DNA of 64,000 nucleotides from Candidatus Hydrogenedentota bacterium (GTDB lineage Bacteria; Hydrogenedentota; Hydrogenedentia; Hydrogenedentales; SLHB01), in assembly GCA_029552745.1 (NCBI GenBank), contig JAKPDK010000070.1:186001-250000 (forward strand), given 5' to 3'. Every line of letters begins with the position of its first letter. Within the stretch, counting starts at the first letter, position 1. The notes beneath the pieces were generated by a model. The model was given only the letters and a program-made list of their open reading frames with translations, was not told the DNA's origin and made no database searches. Both the position numbers and the translations under genes were made by a program. Positions 48,473 through 59,155 of this stretch are shown here, piece after piece.

Positions 48473-51400
48473 ATGCATCACCGTCTATTGAGACACATAT
48501 TACTACTCGGACGTGTAGTTGCAGCCGTCTATCTTTGTGTCTTTTCCTGCTTTGCTTTTGGTCAAGTGCCTGATAACCCCATCGAGCTGTGGAATCATGT
48601 CACGGTTTATCGCGACGAATGGGGAGTGCCCCACGTTTTTGCGGATTCGTTGCGTGCTCTTGGTTTCGGTTTTGGGTATGCACAGGCGGATGACCACATT
48701 GTTCAGATGATGACTGCCTACCGCGTTGCTTCAGGAAGGGCGGCGGAGATTTTGGGGGAGTCTTATGCTGCTTCCGATGAACTCGCCCTCATGATGGGGC
48801 ATTTAGATCTGGCACGGGAGTTGTATCCGGCACTTGACCCAGCGACGCGCGAACTATGCGAGGGATTCGCCTTAGGCGTCAACGCCTGGATTGTCGATTG
48901 GCGTGGCAGAGTGCCGGAATGGGTGGACGGCGTGAAGCCGGAAGAGGTTCTCGCTCTGATGCATTGCTATCTAATGAGTTTTGCCCCGTTGGACCTTTCG
49001 GGGGTTTTCCGACGCGCTCCGGGTACCCCTTCCGCAAATGCCTGGGCGCTCTCTCCATCTAGAACAAACTCCGGTGGGGCGATCTTGGTCATGAACCCTC
49101 ATGCAGACTACGCCAGTCCGTTTCAGTGGTACGAGGCACATCTTGTGTGTCCCGGAATTAACATTTACGGAGCGACCCTCTTCGGTTTACCCGTCATTCT
49201 GCAGGGACACAACGGGTTTTTGGCTTGGGCAATTTCTCCGAATCAGCCAGATTTTGCGGATGTTTACATTGAGAAAGAGCCCAAATTCCCCGTTTCACCC
49301 AAAATGATAGGTGGGACAGAGCTGGAAAAGAAATTTCAAGCATTTATGATGAGTCGCGTCCAGCCGCGGACGTTCTACGTGAAGACGCCGCGAGGTTTAC
49401 AGCGGCGCCATGTGAGCCGGTTCTATACGCCGCGAGGCCCGGTTATTTCAAGAAAAGAGGGCAATTTCTATTCCTACCTTGTTGGGGGGTATCCGGATTT
49501 CGGAAGTATTGCGCAGTTCCTTCAAATGGCGTCTTCAAATAACCTTCCGTCGTTTCTTGGGGCGCTTTCTTTGCATCAGCTGCCGTGTTTCCATATTGTG
49601 TATGCTGATAGAGAGGGAAACATCGCTTATTTCTATAACACAAAGACCGGTTTTCGTTCTGTTCGGCATTTACCGCCTACCGAAGGTCAAGCCGAGGGGA
49701 AACAACCAGTCATCAGCATAACTGCATGGGATAAGCCTCTGCCCTCGGATGACCTCAGATACGCCTGGGGGCAAATTATGCCCTTTTCTATTTTGCCGGC
49801 GGCAATAAATCCTGAATCCGGTTTCGTCCAGGCGTGTGGAACGACGCCCTGGGGAGCCGCGTCCTCCTCAAAAATCTCGCCGGATAACTATCCGAATTGG
49901 TTAGTACGAGACCGCGATAGTTACCGCGCCCGGCGCGTCAGGCACCTTCTCGGTATGGGGACGCGTTCGTATGTCGAAGTTCAGTCGATGGTCTATGACG
50001 TTCTTGTTCCGTTCGCAGCGTCTGCCATTCCAAAACTGCTCGAAATAGCCGACCAACGGCAAGACGTTGTGAAGAACCTGCACCCTGATTTACCCGCCGC
50101 TCTTGAGTTACTACGAAAATGGAGTTGTGTGGCGGAAACGAACAGTCCCGCTATGACTTTCTTCCATGTATGGTGGTCATCTTATCGTAACCTCACACCC
50201 GGATTTGAAGAGGAAACAGACCGCTACGATGCGTTTTGTTCCGGTCAAATGAACCCTCAACTGGCCCTCGACGCTGCTGCCCAGGCGGTACGTCTTATGC
50301 GAAATGAGTTTCACACGATAAGTGTTCCTTGGGGAAATGTACACGCCGTCAGCCGTGGCGAGCGAACCGAACCCATTGCGGGTGGTTCGACAGGTGATCC
50401 GTTATTCTATGTGGCAGATCTTTCTTTTCGTGCAGGTACGTGGCAGACGAATGGCGGTTTTGGTTTTGCTATGGTGGTAAATCTGGGACAACAGACACAA
50501 GCTGTGAGCATGTTGCCTTTCGGAGTTTCCGAGTTTCCTAACTCGCCGCATTTTGCAGATCAACTTGACCTCCTCCTCAACCGACGTTTCAAACTTACTC
50601 GTTTTGTTCCGGAGCAAGTGCAGCGGTATGTATCCTCAGCACTTGGTCGCAATATCACACTTTTACCCCAAGGAATAGAGGGAATCTGCAGGTTGCGGGC
50701 GCCAAGCCCCGTTCAAATTGTAGCGAAAACCAGTGCAACGGCACCGAGTTCTTTGCCGGAAAACCTTTCTCCTTACACGATGTTCCTCCATTTGGAACAG
50801 ACGCCTCAAGAAGTTGACGTTCTCGTTGAGGCACAGTGGCACATCCCGCCCGAGCTTTGTCCCGATGAGCAATTCCAATTTTTGCGTGTCTATATGAACA
50901 CAGAAAAGAACAAGTGGGTCGTAGTTCCTGCGCAGAACTCAGATGAAAAGACCCGAATGATTTCTTTTAGGGGTACTTGTCGAAATTCCTATGTCGTCTT
51001 GGGACCCGGTGTTGACGAAGGTGTGGCTCAGACTCCTTCCGAGCAGCCCCAAAAAGAGACTTCGCGTGAATCTTCCTCCACCTCACAACAGAGGGAGGAC
51101 CGAGGTTCGCAAGACATACCGAACAACGAGTCAAACGATTCAAATCGTCCTTCAAGTTCCACAAGTGAAGATGAAAAAAGCAGCACGCTGTCGAAAGGGG
51201 ATAATGCGATAATAAATCCCCAAAGTAGTCGTCCGAGAGATGTAGTGGCGTGGGGTGAAAAAATTGATCTCAAGAGTGTTGATGGAGCTGGCGAAATTCA
51301 GTTTGTTTTTGAAAGGGAGGTGGGCGTGCGTCTTTCTGTTGCGAGCGCGGTGCCCGCGGCCTTGCCTGAAGGACTCCAGATTTTTTCCGACTGTTATTAT

Positions 51401-51634
51401 GTAACCTGTTCTGATCCTACTGTGAAGGGAGAGGGCAAGGTGACATTAAAAACTTCGTCAATACCCGAGAAAACACAAAACGTTCATAATGTACAGATTT
51501 TTGGTTGGAATGACTCGACGGGGTGGACGGCGCTGGATACGGAATGGCCCAGGGATATGCCGGGCATAGCCACGGCGCGGACACCTGTTATCTACAAGGC
51601 CTATGTCCTACTCGGCTCCACGTCAGGGTCGTAA
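48473..51634 (+). CDS. Penicillin-acylase-family (S45) exported amidase homologue
   Basis: This 1053-residue protein has a signal peptide of about 31 residues (ending CFAFGQ). The S45 pattern follows: VTVYRDEWGVPHVFADS, GFGYAQADDHIVQM, RTNSGGAILVMNPHADY and QGHNGFLAWAIS. Family enzymes are cut into two chains at an N-terminal nucleophile Ser within SNAW-like sequence. Here the stretch is PSANAWAL, so the residue directly before Asn is Ala188 and the nearest Ser is 187. The last 270 residues add a strand-rich part, a Ser/Glu-rich linker (about 850-925) and a final domain ending in strands. Substrate unknown; beta-lactams, acyl-homoserine lactones or acyl-peptides are possible for the family. 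Confidence 0.82.
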   Translation: MHHRLLRHILLLGRVVAAVYLCVFSCFAFGQVPDNPIELWNHVTVYRDEWGVPHVFADSLRALGFGFGYAQADDHIVQMMTAYRVASGRAAEILGESYAASDELALMMGHLDLARELYPALDPATRELCEGFALGVNAWIVDWRGRVPEWVDGVKPEEVLALMHCYLMSFAPLDLSGVFRRAPGTPSANAWALSPSRTNSGGAILVMNPHADYASPFQWYEAHLVCPGINIYGATLFGLPVILQGHNGFLAWAISPNQPDFADVYIEKEPKFPVSPKMIGGTELEKKFQAFMMSRVQPRTFYVKTPRGLQRRHVSRFYTPRGPVISRKEGNFYSYLVGGYPDFGSIAQFLQMASSNNLPSFLGALSLHQLPCFHIVYADREGNIAYFYNTKTGFRSVRHLPPTEGQAEGKQPVISITAWDKPLPSDDLRYAWGQIMPFSILPAAINPESGFVQACGTTPWGAASSSKISPDNYPNWLVRDRDSYRARRVRHLLGMGTRSYVEVQSMVYDVLVPFAASAIPKLLEIADQRQDVVKNLHPDLPAALELLRKWSCVAETNSPAMTFFHVWWSSYRNLTPGFEEETDRYDAFCSGQMNPQLALDAAAQAVRLMRNEFHTISVPWGNVHAVSRGERTEPIAGGSTGDPLFYVADLSFRAGTWQTNGGFGFAMVVNLGQQTQAVSMLPFGVSEFPNSPHFADQLDLLLNRRFKLTRFVPEQVQRYVSSALGRNITLLPQGIEGICRLRAPSPVQIVAKTSATAPSSLPENLSPYTMFLHLEQTPQEVDVLVEAQWHIPPELCPDEQFQFLRVYMNTEKNKWVVVPAQNSDEKTRMISFRGTCRNSYVVLGPGVDEGVAQTPSEQPQKETSRESSSTSQQREDRGSQDIPNNESNDSNRPSSSTSEDEKSSTLSKGDNAIINPQSSRPRDVVAWGEKIDLKSVDGAGEIQFVFEREVGVRLSVASAVPAALPEGLQIFSDCYYVTCSDPTVKGEGKVTLKTSSIPEKTQNVHNVQIFGWNDSTGWTALDTEWPRDMPGIATARTPVIYKAYVLLGSTSGS

Positions 51635-51692
51635 TTAGCTGCTATGAAGATTTTGGATTTAACCGAATGTGTCAAGTAGAAGGGTAGGTTTT

Positions 51693-52448
51693 ATGAATGT
51701 AGACCGCTTAAAGAAATTGCTGGACGACGTTGCGGCAGGTAAGTGTTCGCCAGAAGAGGCCATGAGTCGTCTTCGGGGAATGCCATTCGAAGATGTGGAA
51801 TTTGTAAAAATTGACCATCACCGGGCACTGAGAAAAGGGTTTCCCGAGGTCGTCTTCGGATCGGGCAAGACACCCGAACAGGTTGTACAGATTGTAACTC
51901 GAATGAGGGAAGAGGGGAGTAACGTTCTTGTAACCCGTTCCACGCCGGAGATCGCGGAAGAAGTCTTGCGAGCCCACCCAGATGTGACCTACCATAAAGC
52001 GGCTCGTGCCTTGACGCTTGTGCTGTCTCCGCCCCAAAAGTTTCCCGGGTACGTTGCCGTTCTATGTGCAGGCACATCAGATATGCCCGTAGCTGATGAA
52101 GCCGCGGTGACCTGTGAAATAATGGGCGTTGAAGTCGAACGCGTTTATGACGTCGGGGTAGCAGGCATTCATCGTCTGTTTGCGCAAAGACAGGTTCTTG
52201 AATCTGCTAAGGTCACCATTGTTTGTGCGGGCATGGAAGGAGCGTTGCCAAGTGTCGTAGCGGGTCTTGTGGATTACCCGGTGATTGCCGTGCCGACCAG
52301 CGTCGGATACGGGGCGAGTTTTGGAGGAGTGACCGCTTTGCTTGCTATGTTGAATTCCTGTGCTACGGGCGTGGCAGTTGTAAACATTGATAATGGGTTT
52401 GGCGCGGGTGCTCTTGCTGCATTGATCATGCGTGCCGCAAATCGCTGA
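51693..52448 (+). CDS. larB: Nickel-pincer cofactor biosynthesis protein LarB
   Basis: This 251-residue protein has a short N-terminal helical region (LKKLLDDVAAGKCSPEEAM) and a PurE-like C-terminal core with LCAGTSDMPVADEAAVT, YDVGVAGIHRL and VPTSVGYGASFGG. LarB carboxylates and hydrolyses nicotinic acid adenine dinucleotide as the first step to the nickel-pincer nucleotide used by lactate racemase-type enzymes. ATG 51693 was preferred to 51669 because it matches the family start and follows AGGGTAGG. LarC is the next gene, 22 bases on. LarE and LarA are not present. Confidence 0.9.
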   Translation: MNVDRLKKLLDDVAAGKCSPEEAMSRLRGMPFEDVEFVKIDHHRALRKGFPEVVFGSGKTPEQVVQIVTRMREEGSNVLVTRSTPEIAEEVLRAHPDVTYHKAARALTLVLSPPQKFPGYVAVLCAGTSDMPVADEAAVTCEIMGVEVERVYDVGVAGIHRLFAQRQVLESAKVTIVCAGMEGALPSVVAGLVDYPVIAVPTSVGYGASFGGVTALLAMLNSCATGVAVVNIDNGFGAGALAALIMRAANR

Positions 52449-52470
52449 GCATACTAAACGAGGATGCATT

Positions 52471-53670
52471 ATGAAAACACTGTATTTTGATTGTTTCTGT
52501 GGCGCCAGTGGGGACATGATAGTTGGCTCCTTGCTGGATATTGGGGTGGATTTTGGCGAGCTAGAGCAGATGATTCGCTCCATGCCAATTACAGGCTTTA
52601 AGCTCAAGTCGGAAAAAGTGAAAAAGAAAGGTATTGCCGCAACCCAGTTTTCAGTCATTATGGACAATAACGTCAAACAACCCCATCGTCACCTTCATCA
52701 TGTGCTGGAGATTATCAACGGCGGTAATCTTCCTGAGAAGGTAAAAACGGCCGCTTCCGAGACGTTTCGTCTGATTGCGGAAGCCGAGGCAACGGTTCAT
52801 GCCACCCCCGTTGACCACGTGCATTTTCATGAGGTGGGCGCTATAGATTCAATAGTGGACATCGTAGGCGCCCATATTGCCCTTTATCTGCTCCAGGTTG
52901 ACGCAGTGTTTTCTTCTCCTCTGCTAACAGGGTTTGGAAGCATACAATGCGATCACGGTGTCATGCCTGTGCCCGCCCCAGCAACCGCCTTGCTGTTGAG
53001 GGGGATACCTTGGTCTTCCGGTGATGTGGCAACCGAGCTGTTGACCCCCACCGGGGCGGCGCTCCTACGCTATGTCGTGAAAGACTTTCGTCCTATGTTA
53101 CCCATGCGTGTGGATAAAGTGGGGTATGGCAGCGGCACACGCGATCTTCCTGACCGTGCCAATGTATTACGGGCCTTTTTGGGAGAGTCTTGCGAAGTGG
53201 CGCGAGTGTCCGAAGAGATTTCGGTCATAGAGACGAATGTAGACGATATGACACCGGAAACGCTTGCGCCACTTGTGGGGAACCTTATTGAGGCAGGGGC
53301 ACGAGACGCTTTTTTGTGTCCTGTGCTAGGAAAGAAAGGGAGGATGGGCTTTTGGCTCACGGTTCTGTGCGATGCGGACAAGGTTTCGAAACTCGCGGAT
53401 TTGATCTTTTGCTCTACTTCTACGTTTGGTATTCGAATACGTTCGGAGCATAGGATATGTCTCGAAAGAGAATGGAAATGGGTGAAGACGGATTGGGGCA
53501 AGATTCGCGTGAAAATAGGTAAAATGGGAGACAATGCTATCCGCAGGGCGCCGGAATTTGAAGATTGTCGTGCTGCGGCAGTAAAGCATGGAACAACTGT
53601 ATTGGAAGTATACCAGGCGGCACTGTCTGCTGCGGTGAGGGGAGAGTTCTGCGATGTCCATGAAAAATGA
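52471..53670 (+). CDS. larC: Nickel-pincer cofactor biosynthesis protein LarC (nickel insertion)
   Basis: This 399-residue protein starts MKTLYFDCFCGASGDM and has HFHEVGAIDSIVDIVG and ETNVDDMTPE, all LarC landmarks. LarC inserts nickel into the sulfur-containing pincer precursor at the expense of CTP. Here LarC is a single uninterrupted frame, whereas in some lactobacilli it is made by a programmed frameshift. The ATG follows CGAGGA. The coaD gene begins inside its last 17 bases, so translation of the two is probably coupled. Confidence 0.9.
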   Translation: MKTLYFDCFCGASGDMIVGSLLDIGVDFGELEQMIRSMPITGFKLKSEKVKKKGIAATQFSVIMDNNVKQPHRHLHHVLEIINGGNLPEKVKTAASETFRLIAEAEATVHATPVDHVHFHEVGAIDSIVDIVGAHIALYLLQVDAVFSSPLLTGFGSIQCDHGVMPVPAPATALLLRGIPWSSGDVATELLTPTGAALLRYVVKDFRPMLPMRVDKVGYGSGTRDLPDRANVLRAFLGESCEVARVSEEISVIETNVDDMTPETLAPLVGNLIEAGARDAFLCPVLGKKGRMGFWLTVLCDADKVSKLADLIFCSTSTFGIRIRSEHRICLEREWKWVKTDWGKIRVKIGKMGDNAIRRAPEFEDCRAAAVKHGTTVLEVYQAALSAAVRGEFCDVHEK

Positions 53671-58473: not shown

Positions 58474-58701
58474 CGCCCGGCTCCCATTGTCATGAGCCCC
58501 CGAATTTCTCGCTCATACCGAAGATTATTTTATAACGCGCCTTCTTGCAAAGCAAATTGTTGTATAAGTTCAGTACCTTTGGCACGTTTTGTTATGTTGG
58601 ATGAGGAATTGCACAGAGGACTTTGCATTAAGGTCAGTGAGAGGAAAACATTCACGCGTGGTGTCATAGGTAGGTTTGATCTATCTGTGCCTCCCTCAGT
58701 T

Positions 58702-58839
58702 CCCCCGCACATGGGGGGATGGCAATGTAGGGGCGGGTCGCGAACCGCCCGTACGATGTCCGCCGCACACGCGGGGGGATGGCTCCCCGCCGTGTTGTTC
58801 TTCTGTCATCTCTTGTTAGTCCCCCGCATGCGGGGGGAC
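58702..58839. repeat. Three short G/C-rich palindromes about 60 bases apart plus a longer inverted repeat
   Basis: Near-identical CCCCCGCAyryGGGGGGA palindromes occur at 58702-58720, about 58763-58780 and 58821-58839. Between the first two, GGGCGGGTCG with CGAACCGCCC (58731-58750) forms another inverted repeat with one mismatch. The cluster sits between two convergently leaving genes and does not code. Two of its palindromes are perfect or almost perfect, and the spacing is not like a CRISPR array. Confidence 0.7.
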
Positions 58840-58885
58840 AAAGGGGGGCTGAACCCTGCGCAGGGGATAGAAAGCCTTCCCCCGC

Positions 58886-59031
58886 TGTCATTGCGAGGAG
58901 CCCCGAAGGGGCGACGTGGCAATCCCCTTAGGTATCCGGAGATTACCCCCCGACCCATGCCCAGGTCACCTTGCGCTACGCGGTTAAGGGGATTGCTTCG
59001 TCCCTTCGGGGACTCGCTCCTCGCAATGACA
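58886..59031. repeat. 146-base imperfect inverted repeat (REP/MITE-like)
   Basis: TGTCATTGCGAGGAG at the left end (58886-58900) is the exact complement of the right end CTCCTCGCAATGACA (59017-59031). Inside, CCCCGAAGGGGCGACGTGGC and the AATCCCCTTA segment mirror AAGGGGATTGCTTCGTCCC on the other side. Similar TCATTGCGAGGAGC/GTGGCAATCC repeats occur in many bacterial genomes. The element could fold as a long hairpin or be a non-autonomous mobile element. The whole 58474-59155 gap holds no convincing gene. Confidence 0.8.
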
Positions 59032-59155
59032 ACCGAGCGTATGAGCCCGATCTGCTTTCTCGATGCAGTACCAAAGGTTTGTGAACTTATTCAATTTTAG
59101 GGTTGCGATATGCGAGAGAAAATGGGTTGACCATGTCCATGCTGTCAATTTACTT

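Follow-up and report, generated by a model that had tools for sequence, protein, structure and literature searches.

The analysed window, a 64,000-nucleotide stretch of a Hydrogenedentota genome of 4.36 Mb, carries on its forward strand a gene for a protein of the S45 (penicillin amidase) family, which we refer to below as the putative pseudo-acylase. The gene and the parts of its product are laid out as follows, in window coordinates.

48473-51634, + strand: open reading frame of the putative pseudo-acylase, 1053 residues, matching PF01804 at 386.8 bits
48473-48565, + strand: hydrophobic N-terminus resembling a secretion signal (residues 1-31), judged by eye
48599-50623, + strand: S45 / penicillin amidase domain (residues 43-717), from a Pfam match and a PDB match
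50636-51016, + strand: C-terminal β-sandwich domain 1 (about residues 722-848), AF2 pLDDT 84-92 in the blocks over residues 721-840
51017-51235, + strand: Ser/Thr/Glu-rich linker, probably disordered (about residues 849-921), pLDDT below 50 over 849-921
51245-51619, + strand: C-terminal β-domain 2, a repeat of domain 1, from a second profile match and AF2 strands with pLDDT 64-90 by block

Domain organization

The descent of the protein from S45 is evident in its match to PF01804 (Penicil_amidase), which lies well over the cut-off of 21.3 bits and covers the whole domain (profile positions 2-674 of 675); PF01804 is also matched by 42 of the 42 members of A1, the profile made from 42 of the 62 orthologues described below. 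The closest match of the protein in the PDB is the cephalosporin acylase 4e57 (E 8.7e-52), and a search of solved structures with the A1 profile likewise places cephalosporin/glutaryl-7-ACA acylases nearest (E about 1e-86). N-termini similar to that of the putative pseudo-acylase are seen, by eye, in many orthologues. At the other end of the protein, positions 704-827 of the A1 profile match a second time at 51245-51619 (E 1.9e-7), and the two β-domains are a predicted tandem repeat flanking the low-confidence linker. Against Pfam, the C-terminal β-domains gave nothing over a cut-off, the weak matches to DUF7206 and Hep_core_N both falling below theirs. The length that follows the S45 domain differs greatly among orthologues.

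Two AF2 runs of 9 sequences each gave a mean pLDDT of 58.0 and 53.7. Residues of about 166-510, the Ntn core, are mostly below 50, with some helices of the S45 part predicted confidently. A Foldseek search with the first model returned S45 structures at the top (E 1.2e-19), with a query TM of only about 0.3.

Genomic neighborhood

Upstream of the gene lie genes for SHMT, a DegT aminotransferase, and an amidohydrolase, and downstream lie those for an AIRC-domain protein, a nickel-insertion protein, and a glycoside hydrolase 2. We compared 21 contexts, namely that in the window, spanning at most about 24 kb, and 20 further ones of at most 20 kb each. The most widely shared neighbor cluster occurs in four of them, and several neighbors are common within each of the close pairs L109/L110 and L113/L114. 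The gene appears to stand alone; with no cluster in more than 4/21 contexts, we dropped the neighborhood as a guide to substrate, in agreement with the preliminary description, which had seen no substrate suggested by the neighbors. The reading frames of the AIRC-domain protein (51669-52448) and of the nickel-insertion protein (52432-53670, PF01969) overlap; we take the two to be LarB-like and LarC-like, respectively, and the pair at 51669-53670 is possibly a nickel-pincer cofactor pair. Farther downstream, 58680-59040 contains C/G-rich repeats (58703-58723 and 58763-58783 are 81% alike) that presumably resemble short intergenic repeat elements, and a 202-residue ORF called there may be spurious.

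Distribution and history of the orthologs

A protein search of 68 genomes of the phylum gave ortholog matches at 36-53% identity. With the A1 profile at a threshold of E 1e-100, an ortholog was found in 63 of the 68 Hydrogenedentota genomes, including G055, which is matched by a fragment in the C-terminal part only; at this threshold none was found in G031, G050, G054, G057, or G058. Among 318 other genomes, with scoring limited to two candidates per genome, only G258 passed E 1e-100 (371.1 bits), with a protein that lacks the C-terminal part. The 146 genomes of its phylum include 18 with matches at E 1e-95, 20 matches in total, of which the best (388.1 bits) again ends near profile position 702; this match and that of G258 both lack the C-terminal part and have a canonical motif. 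A scan of genome_contigs yielded eight relatives; the record titles read Hydrogenedentota or Hydrogenedentes for six of them and "uncultured bacterium" for the other two. A scan of viral_contigs with the ortholog profile gave 17 pattern hits and zero relatives.

For residue counts we aligned 62 orthologs with 27 paralogs from the phylum, the latter chosen by us among the places listed in the phylum search. Left out before counting were L002-L010, which repeat other loci, as shown by their identical scores, L001, which is the same as L077, and L073, the G055 fragment, which lacks the motif. The motif is absent from L071, and L072 stops near residue 377, which gives denominators of 61 or 62. In a quick tree a single branch with SH-aLRT support of 100 splits the 62 orthologs from the 27 paralogs; seven trait columns were removed for this tree (256 and 374 were retained), and a program warning notes that long branches meet at the split. 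The orthologs thus apparently constitute a single, Hydrogenedentota-specific branch of S45. Nei-Gojobori dN/dS values of 0.066-0.212 in 12 of 13 ortholog pairs, which are rough in that dS exceeds 1 in five of these 12 measurable pairs, show purifying selection at the sequence level; the 13th pair is saturated. For two canonical pairs the values were 0.029 and 0.080, and the orthologs may be less constrained than canonical proteins.

Replacement of the catalytic residues

The codons at 49022-49048, GGT ACC CCT TCC GCA AAT GCC TGG GCG, encode G184 T185 P186 S187 A188 N189 A190 W191 A192. We assign Ala188 to the Ser1-β column because residue 1 of solved S45 β chains (e.g., 3jtq_B and 1ghd_B) aligns on residue 188, and the 22 residues from Ala188 to His210 reproduce the canonical Ser1-His23 spacing. 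The codons and this alignment bear out the preliminary description, according to which Ala stands in the place of the nucleophile and Ser one position earlier. The residues of the former active site that we discuss are the following.

49031-49033, + strand: Ser187, one residue ahead of the nucleophile column; Ser or Thr in 55/61 orthologs
49034-49036, + strand: Ala188, Ser1-β nucleophile column; Gly or Ala in 59/61 orthologs
49100-49102, + strand: His210 (His23-β); kept in 58/61
49238-49240, + strand: Pro256, column of the oxyanion-hole backbone NH donor (Val70/Ala69-β); Pro in 62/62
49592-49594, + strand: His374 (Asn178-β column); His in 56/62
49838-49840, + strand: Gly456, oxyanion Asn column (Asn244-β of cephalosporin acylase); Gly in 55/61
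49925-49927, + strand: Arg485 (Arg263-β of PGA); kept in 57/61

The departure from the motif is real and extends through the clade. Active S45 enzymes have Ser (or Cys/Thr) at β residue 1, and the nucleophile column is Ser in 27/27 phylum paralogs and in 20/20 best matches from the phylum of G258, in all 47/47 sampled canonical S45 proteins; the 61 orthologs instead have Gly in 38, Ala in 21, and Ser in two. Recurrence of the pattern in many genomes excludes the sequencing error that had been considered as a source of the motif. The preliminary description had also allowed for a conserved Ser elsewhere as the nucleophile. Screening for Ser columns kept in ≥95% of orthologs did recover two, S101 (57/60) and S686 (60/60, and also Ser in 16/27 paralogs), but neither is among the mapped active-site columns.

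The oxyanion hole is altered as well. Where active S45 enzymes use the backbone NH of β residue 69/70, the orthologs have Pro256, in a column that reads Val in 33, Thr in 13, and Leu in one of the canonical proteins; proline having no amide hydrogen, one oxyanion NH is gone. In uncleaved MacQ, according to PMC5566955, the Val272 backbone NH forms the oxyanion hole, possibly with an Asn side chain, and the β 70 residue is included in the active-site list in Table 1 of PMC11241749. The oxyanion Asn side chain of active S45 enzymes is also missing: Asn occupies its column in 47/47 canonical proteins, and the orthologs have Gly in 55, Ala in two, Glu in two, and Asn in only two. The column is assigned from the alignment with 4e57, in which Ala166 stands at Ser1-β and Asn409, β 244 when residues are counted, aligns with Gly456. 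PMC6712217 names the oxyanion Asn of cephalosporin acylase N176 as Asn242-β; both candidate columns, 454 and 456, are without Asn, the former being Ala in 54/61. Four orthologs are exceptions, and all four carry Pro256. In L031 and L069 the nucleophile column holds Ser, but the following Asn is lost and position 456 is Gly; in L056 and L060 position 456 is Asn, with Gly or Ala at 188.

Other columns of the pocket persist. The His/Gln23-β and Arg263-β of active S45 enzymes are represented by His210 and Arg485, and the column of Phe373 (Phe177-β) is kept in 62/62 orthologs. That of His374 reads Asn in 35 and Thr in 12 of the canonical proteins. We considered and rejected the equation of His374 with His178-β of cephalosporin acylase N176, as Table 1 of PMC11241749 sets that His at the Phe373 column and Asn179 in the row of the His374 column. 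We mapped 12 of the 17 rows of this table, omitting three α-chain and two β-chain rows; among the mapped active-site columns 4/12 are replaced, versus 45/606 others (Fisher p 0.011 in a post hoc test made once the columns were known, which treats columns as independent).

Column 187 behaves differently in the two groups, with Ser in 32, Thr in 23, Arg in three, and Leu, Ala, and Gln in one ortholog each, versus Gly in 22, Ala in three, and Arg in two paralogs. On the tree, at least nine exchanges between Ser and Thr accompany only two losses of the hydroxyl, which seems to be under selection. The residue preceding 187 varies among orthologs. The three orthologs without His210 (L058, L063, and L065), which fall in two clades, all lack the hydroxyl at 187 too, a link that amounts to two independent pairs only and is not significant.

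Two sub-clades depart further from the rest. One (L063, L064, L065, and L070; dN/dS about 0.18-0.19) has Arg or Gln for Ser187 and Gln for His374, and two of its four members are also without His23-β; this may be read either as further decay or as a different ligand. The other (L066, L067, and L068) is long-branched, has the motif KSGFAF, and is without Arg485 and without the Asn that follows the nucleophile column.

The junction at which active S45 enzymes carry an excised spacer between the α and β chains is of fixed length. From column 170 to Asn189, exactly 20 residues are present in 61/61 orthologs, and 21-50 in the 27 phylum paralogs. In MacQ and its homologs, as described in PMC5566955, a spacer at this junction is excised on maturation. 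The fixed length and the missing spacer would be consistent with a loss of cleavage. The one-residue insertion by which Ser187 had been proposed to act is rejected: downstream of the motif the distance is canonical, and the stretch upstream is shorter than that of the paralogs.

Function of the putative pseudo-acylase

The replacement, across the clade, of the nucleophile, the oxyanion Asn, and the oxyanion NH donor makes inactivity the best supported of the options in the preliminary description. From sequence comparison, we consider it likely that catalysis has been lost, and probable that this branch of S45 has turned into a pseudoenzyme with a non-cutting job. The nucleophile Ser has given way to Gly or Ala, the oxyanion Asn mostly to Gly, and the NH-donating residue to Pro, and the excised spacer is absent. 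The protein, exported if its N-terminus has been read correctly by eye, would remain one uncleaved chain with the S45 shell fold. Its former substrate pocket (His210, Phe373, His374, and Arg485, mostly kept) would then bind an acyl or amide ligand without cutting it, and the C-terminal β-domains would place it in the envelope or outside. Given a loss of catalysis, we put the chance that its role is that of a ligand-binding protein at about even. Such binding is tentatively suggested by the retained pocket columns and by PvdQ, of which the inactive S1A/N269D mutant has, by its PDB title (5ubk), a substrate precursor bound.

A loss of Ser1-β alone is no proof of inactivity, because the S210A variant of MacQ (Ser1-β to Ala) is reported in PMC5566955 to be uncleaved and yet to retain activity toward several AHLs, but none toward penicillin G. 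The mechanism is called unclear by its authors there, and a hydrolase without a covalent nucleophile, in which water attacks in the pocket with His210, could be imagined for the orthologs too, the more so as His210 and Arg485 are retained. We hold this to be quite improbable, as S210A is altered in the nucleophile only and retains the oxyanion residues that the Hydrogenedentota clade lacks. Somewhat less improbable, but still doubtful, is an enzyme shifted in register, with Ser/Thr187 as the nucleophile at a new N-terminus or in an uncleaved chain and a rebuilt oxyanion hole for which His374 is a candidate. The uncleaved MacQ SP-delta-7 is active (PMC5566955), and the conservation of Ser or Thr at 187 (55/61), for which we call a shifted nucleophile unlikely rather than excluded, speaks for this reading, as do the frequent exchanges set against few hydroxyl losses and the missing hydroxyl in the three orthologs that have lost His23-β. 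On the other side, Pro256 removes an oxyanion NH in every ortholog and the Asn donor is lost in 59/61, the residue before 187 is variable, and the coupling of His and hydroxyl comprises too few independent losses to reach significance. Furthermore, Arg, Leu, Ala, or Gln stands at 187 in 6/61, and four of these six members, measured as two pairs, have dN/dS of 0.180 and 0.187. In our judgement, the free exchange of Ser and Thr at this position is easier to reconcile with a structural hydrogen bond than with a nucleophilic role.

We give a slim but slightly better chance to a phylum-defining S45 lineage with a rebuilt center, in which the hydroxyl would have moved one residue upstream, Pro would have entered the oxyanion loop, Asn would have become Gly, and a new His would have been gained, yielding either new single-chain chemistry or an acyl-amide sensor or receptor. 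A decaying gene or an artefact of assembly or sequencing is hardly credible: many of the draft assemblies are fragmented, but the gene is present in 63/68 genomes, no internal stop codon occurs among the ortholog matches listed, and dN/dS does not exceed 0.212 in the 12 measurable pairs.

Comparison with known systems

The proteasome α subunits and inactive β subunits are Ntn-hydrolase folds that lack a working nucleophile and serve structural roles. They belong to a different family, but the putative pseudo-acylase would share with them an Ntn fold without a working nucleophile. Within S45, the cephalosporin and glutaryl-7-ACA acylases (4e57, 3s8r, and 1keh; several cephalosporin acylase PDB constructs are engineered mutants) resemble it in the His23-β, Phe177-β, and Arg columns, which are mostly kept. 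Natural cephalosporin acylases, however, use Ser1-β, the Val70-β NH, and Asn244-β, where the putative pseudo-acylase and its orthologs have Gly/Ala, Pro, and mostly Gly, and differ also in that the latter have no spacer and possess extra C-terminal β-domains. As described in PMC5566955, MacQ SP-delta-7 and S210A are uncleaved single S45 chains, as the putative pseudo-acylase would be, and in S210A the nucleophile column likewise holds Ala; the structure of the spacer-shortened form is PDB 5c9i. These mutants were made in the laboratory and keep the oxyanion residues and AHL activity, whereas the loss described here occurs in nature, across the clade, and extends to the oxyanion hole. PvdQ S1A/N269D (5ubk, judged by its title) is alike in that both the nucleophile and the oxyanion Asn are replaced, but it is engineered and circularly permuted. 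In the part of the literature matches that we covered, mostly outside subscription journals and as titles and the starts of abstracts, we found no report of an S45 clade without the nucleophile.

S45 proteins are usually annotated as penicillin or AHL acylases. By homology the Hydrogenedentota branch would be named an acylase as well, yet its nucleophile and oxyanion hole are missing, which calls for caution in annotation: neither quorum quenching nor drug resistance should be inferred from such a name. The branch may also serve as a natural test of the claim made for MacQ, according to which neither cleavage nor Ser1 is needed for an S45 chain to work. Finally, the gene is near-universal in the Hydrogenedentota, and points to a conserved function in this poorly studied phylum.
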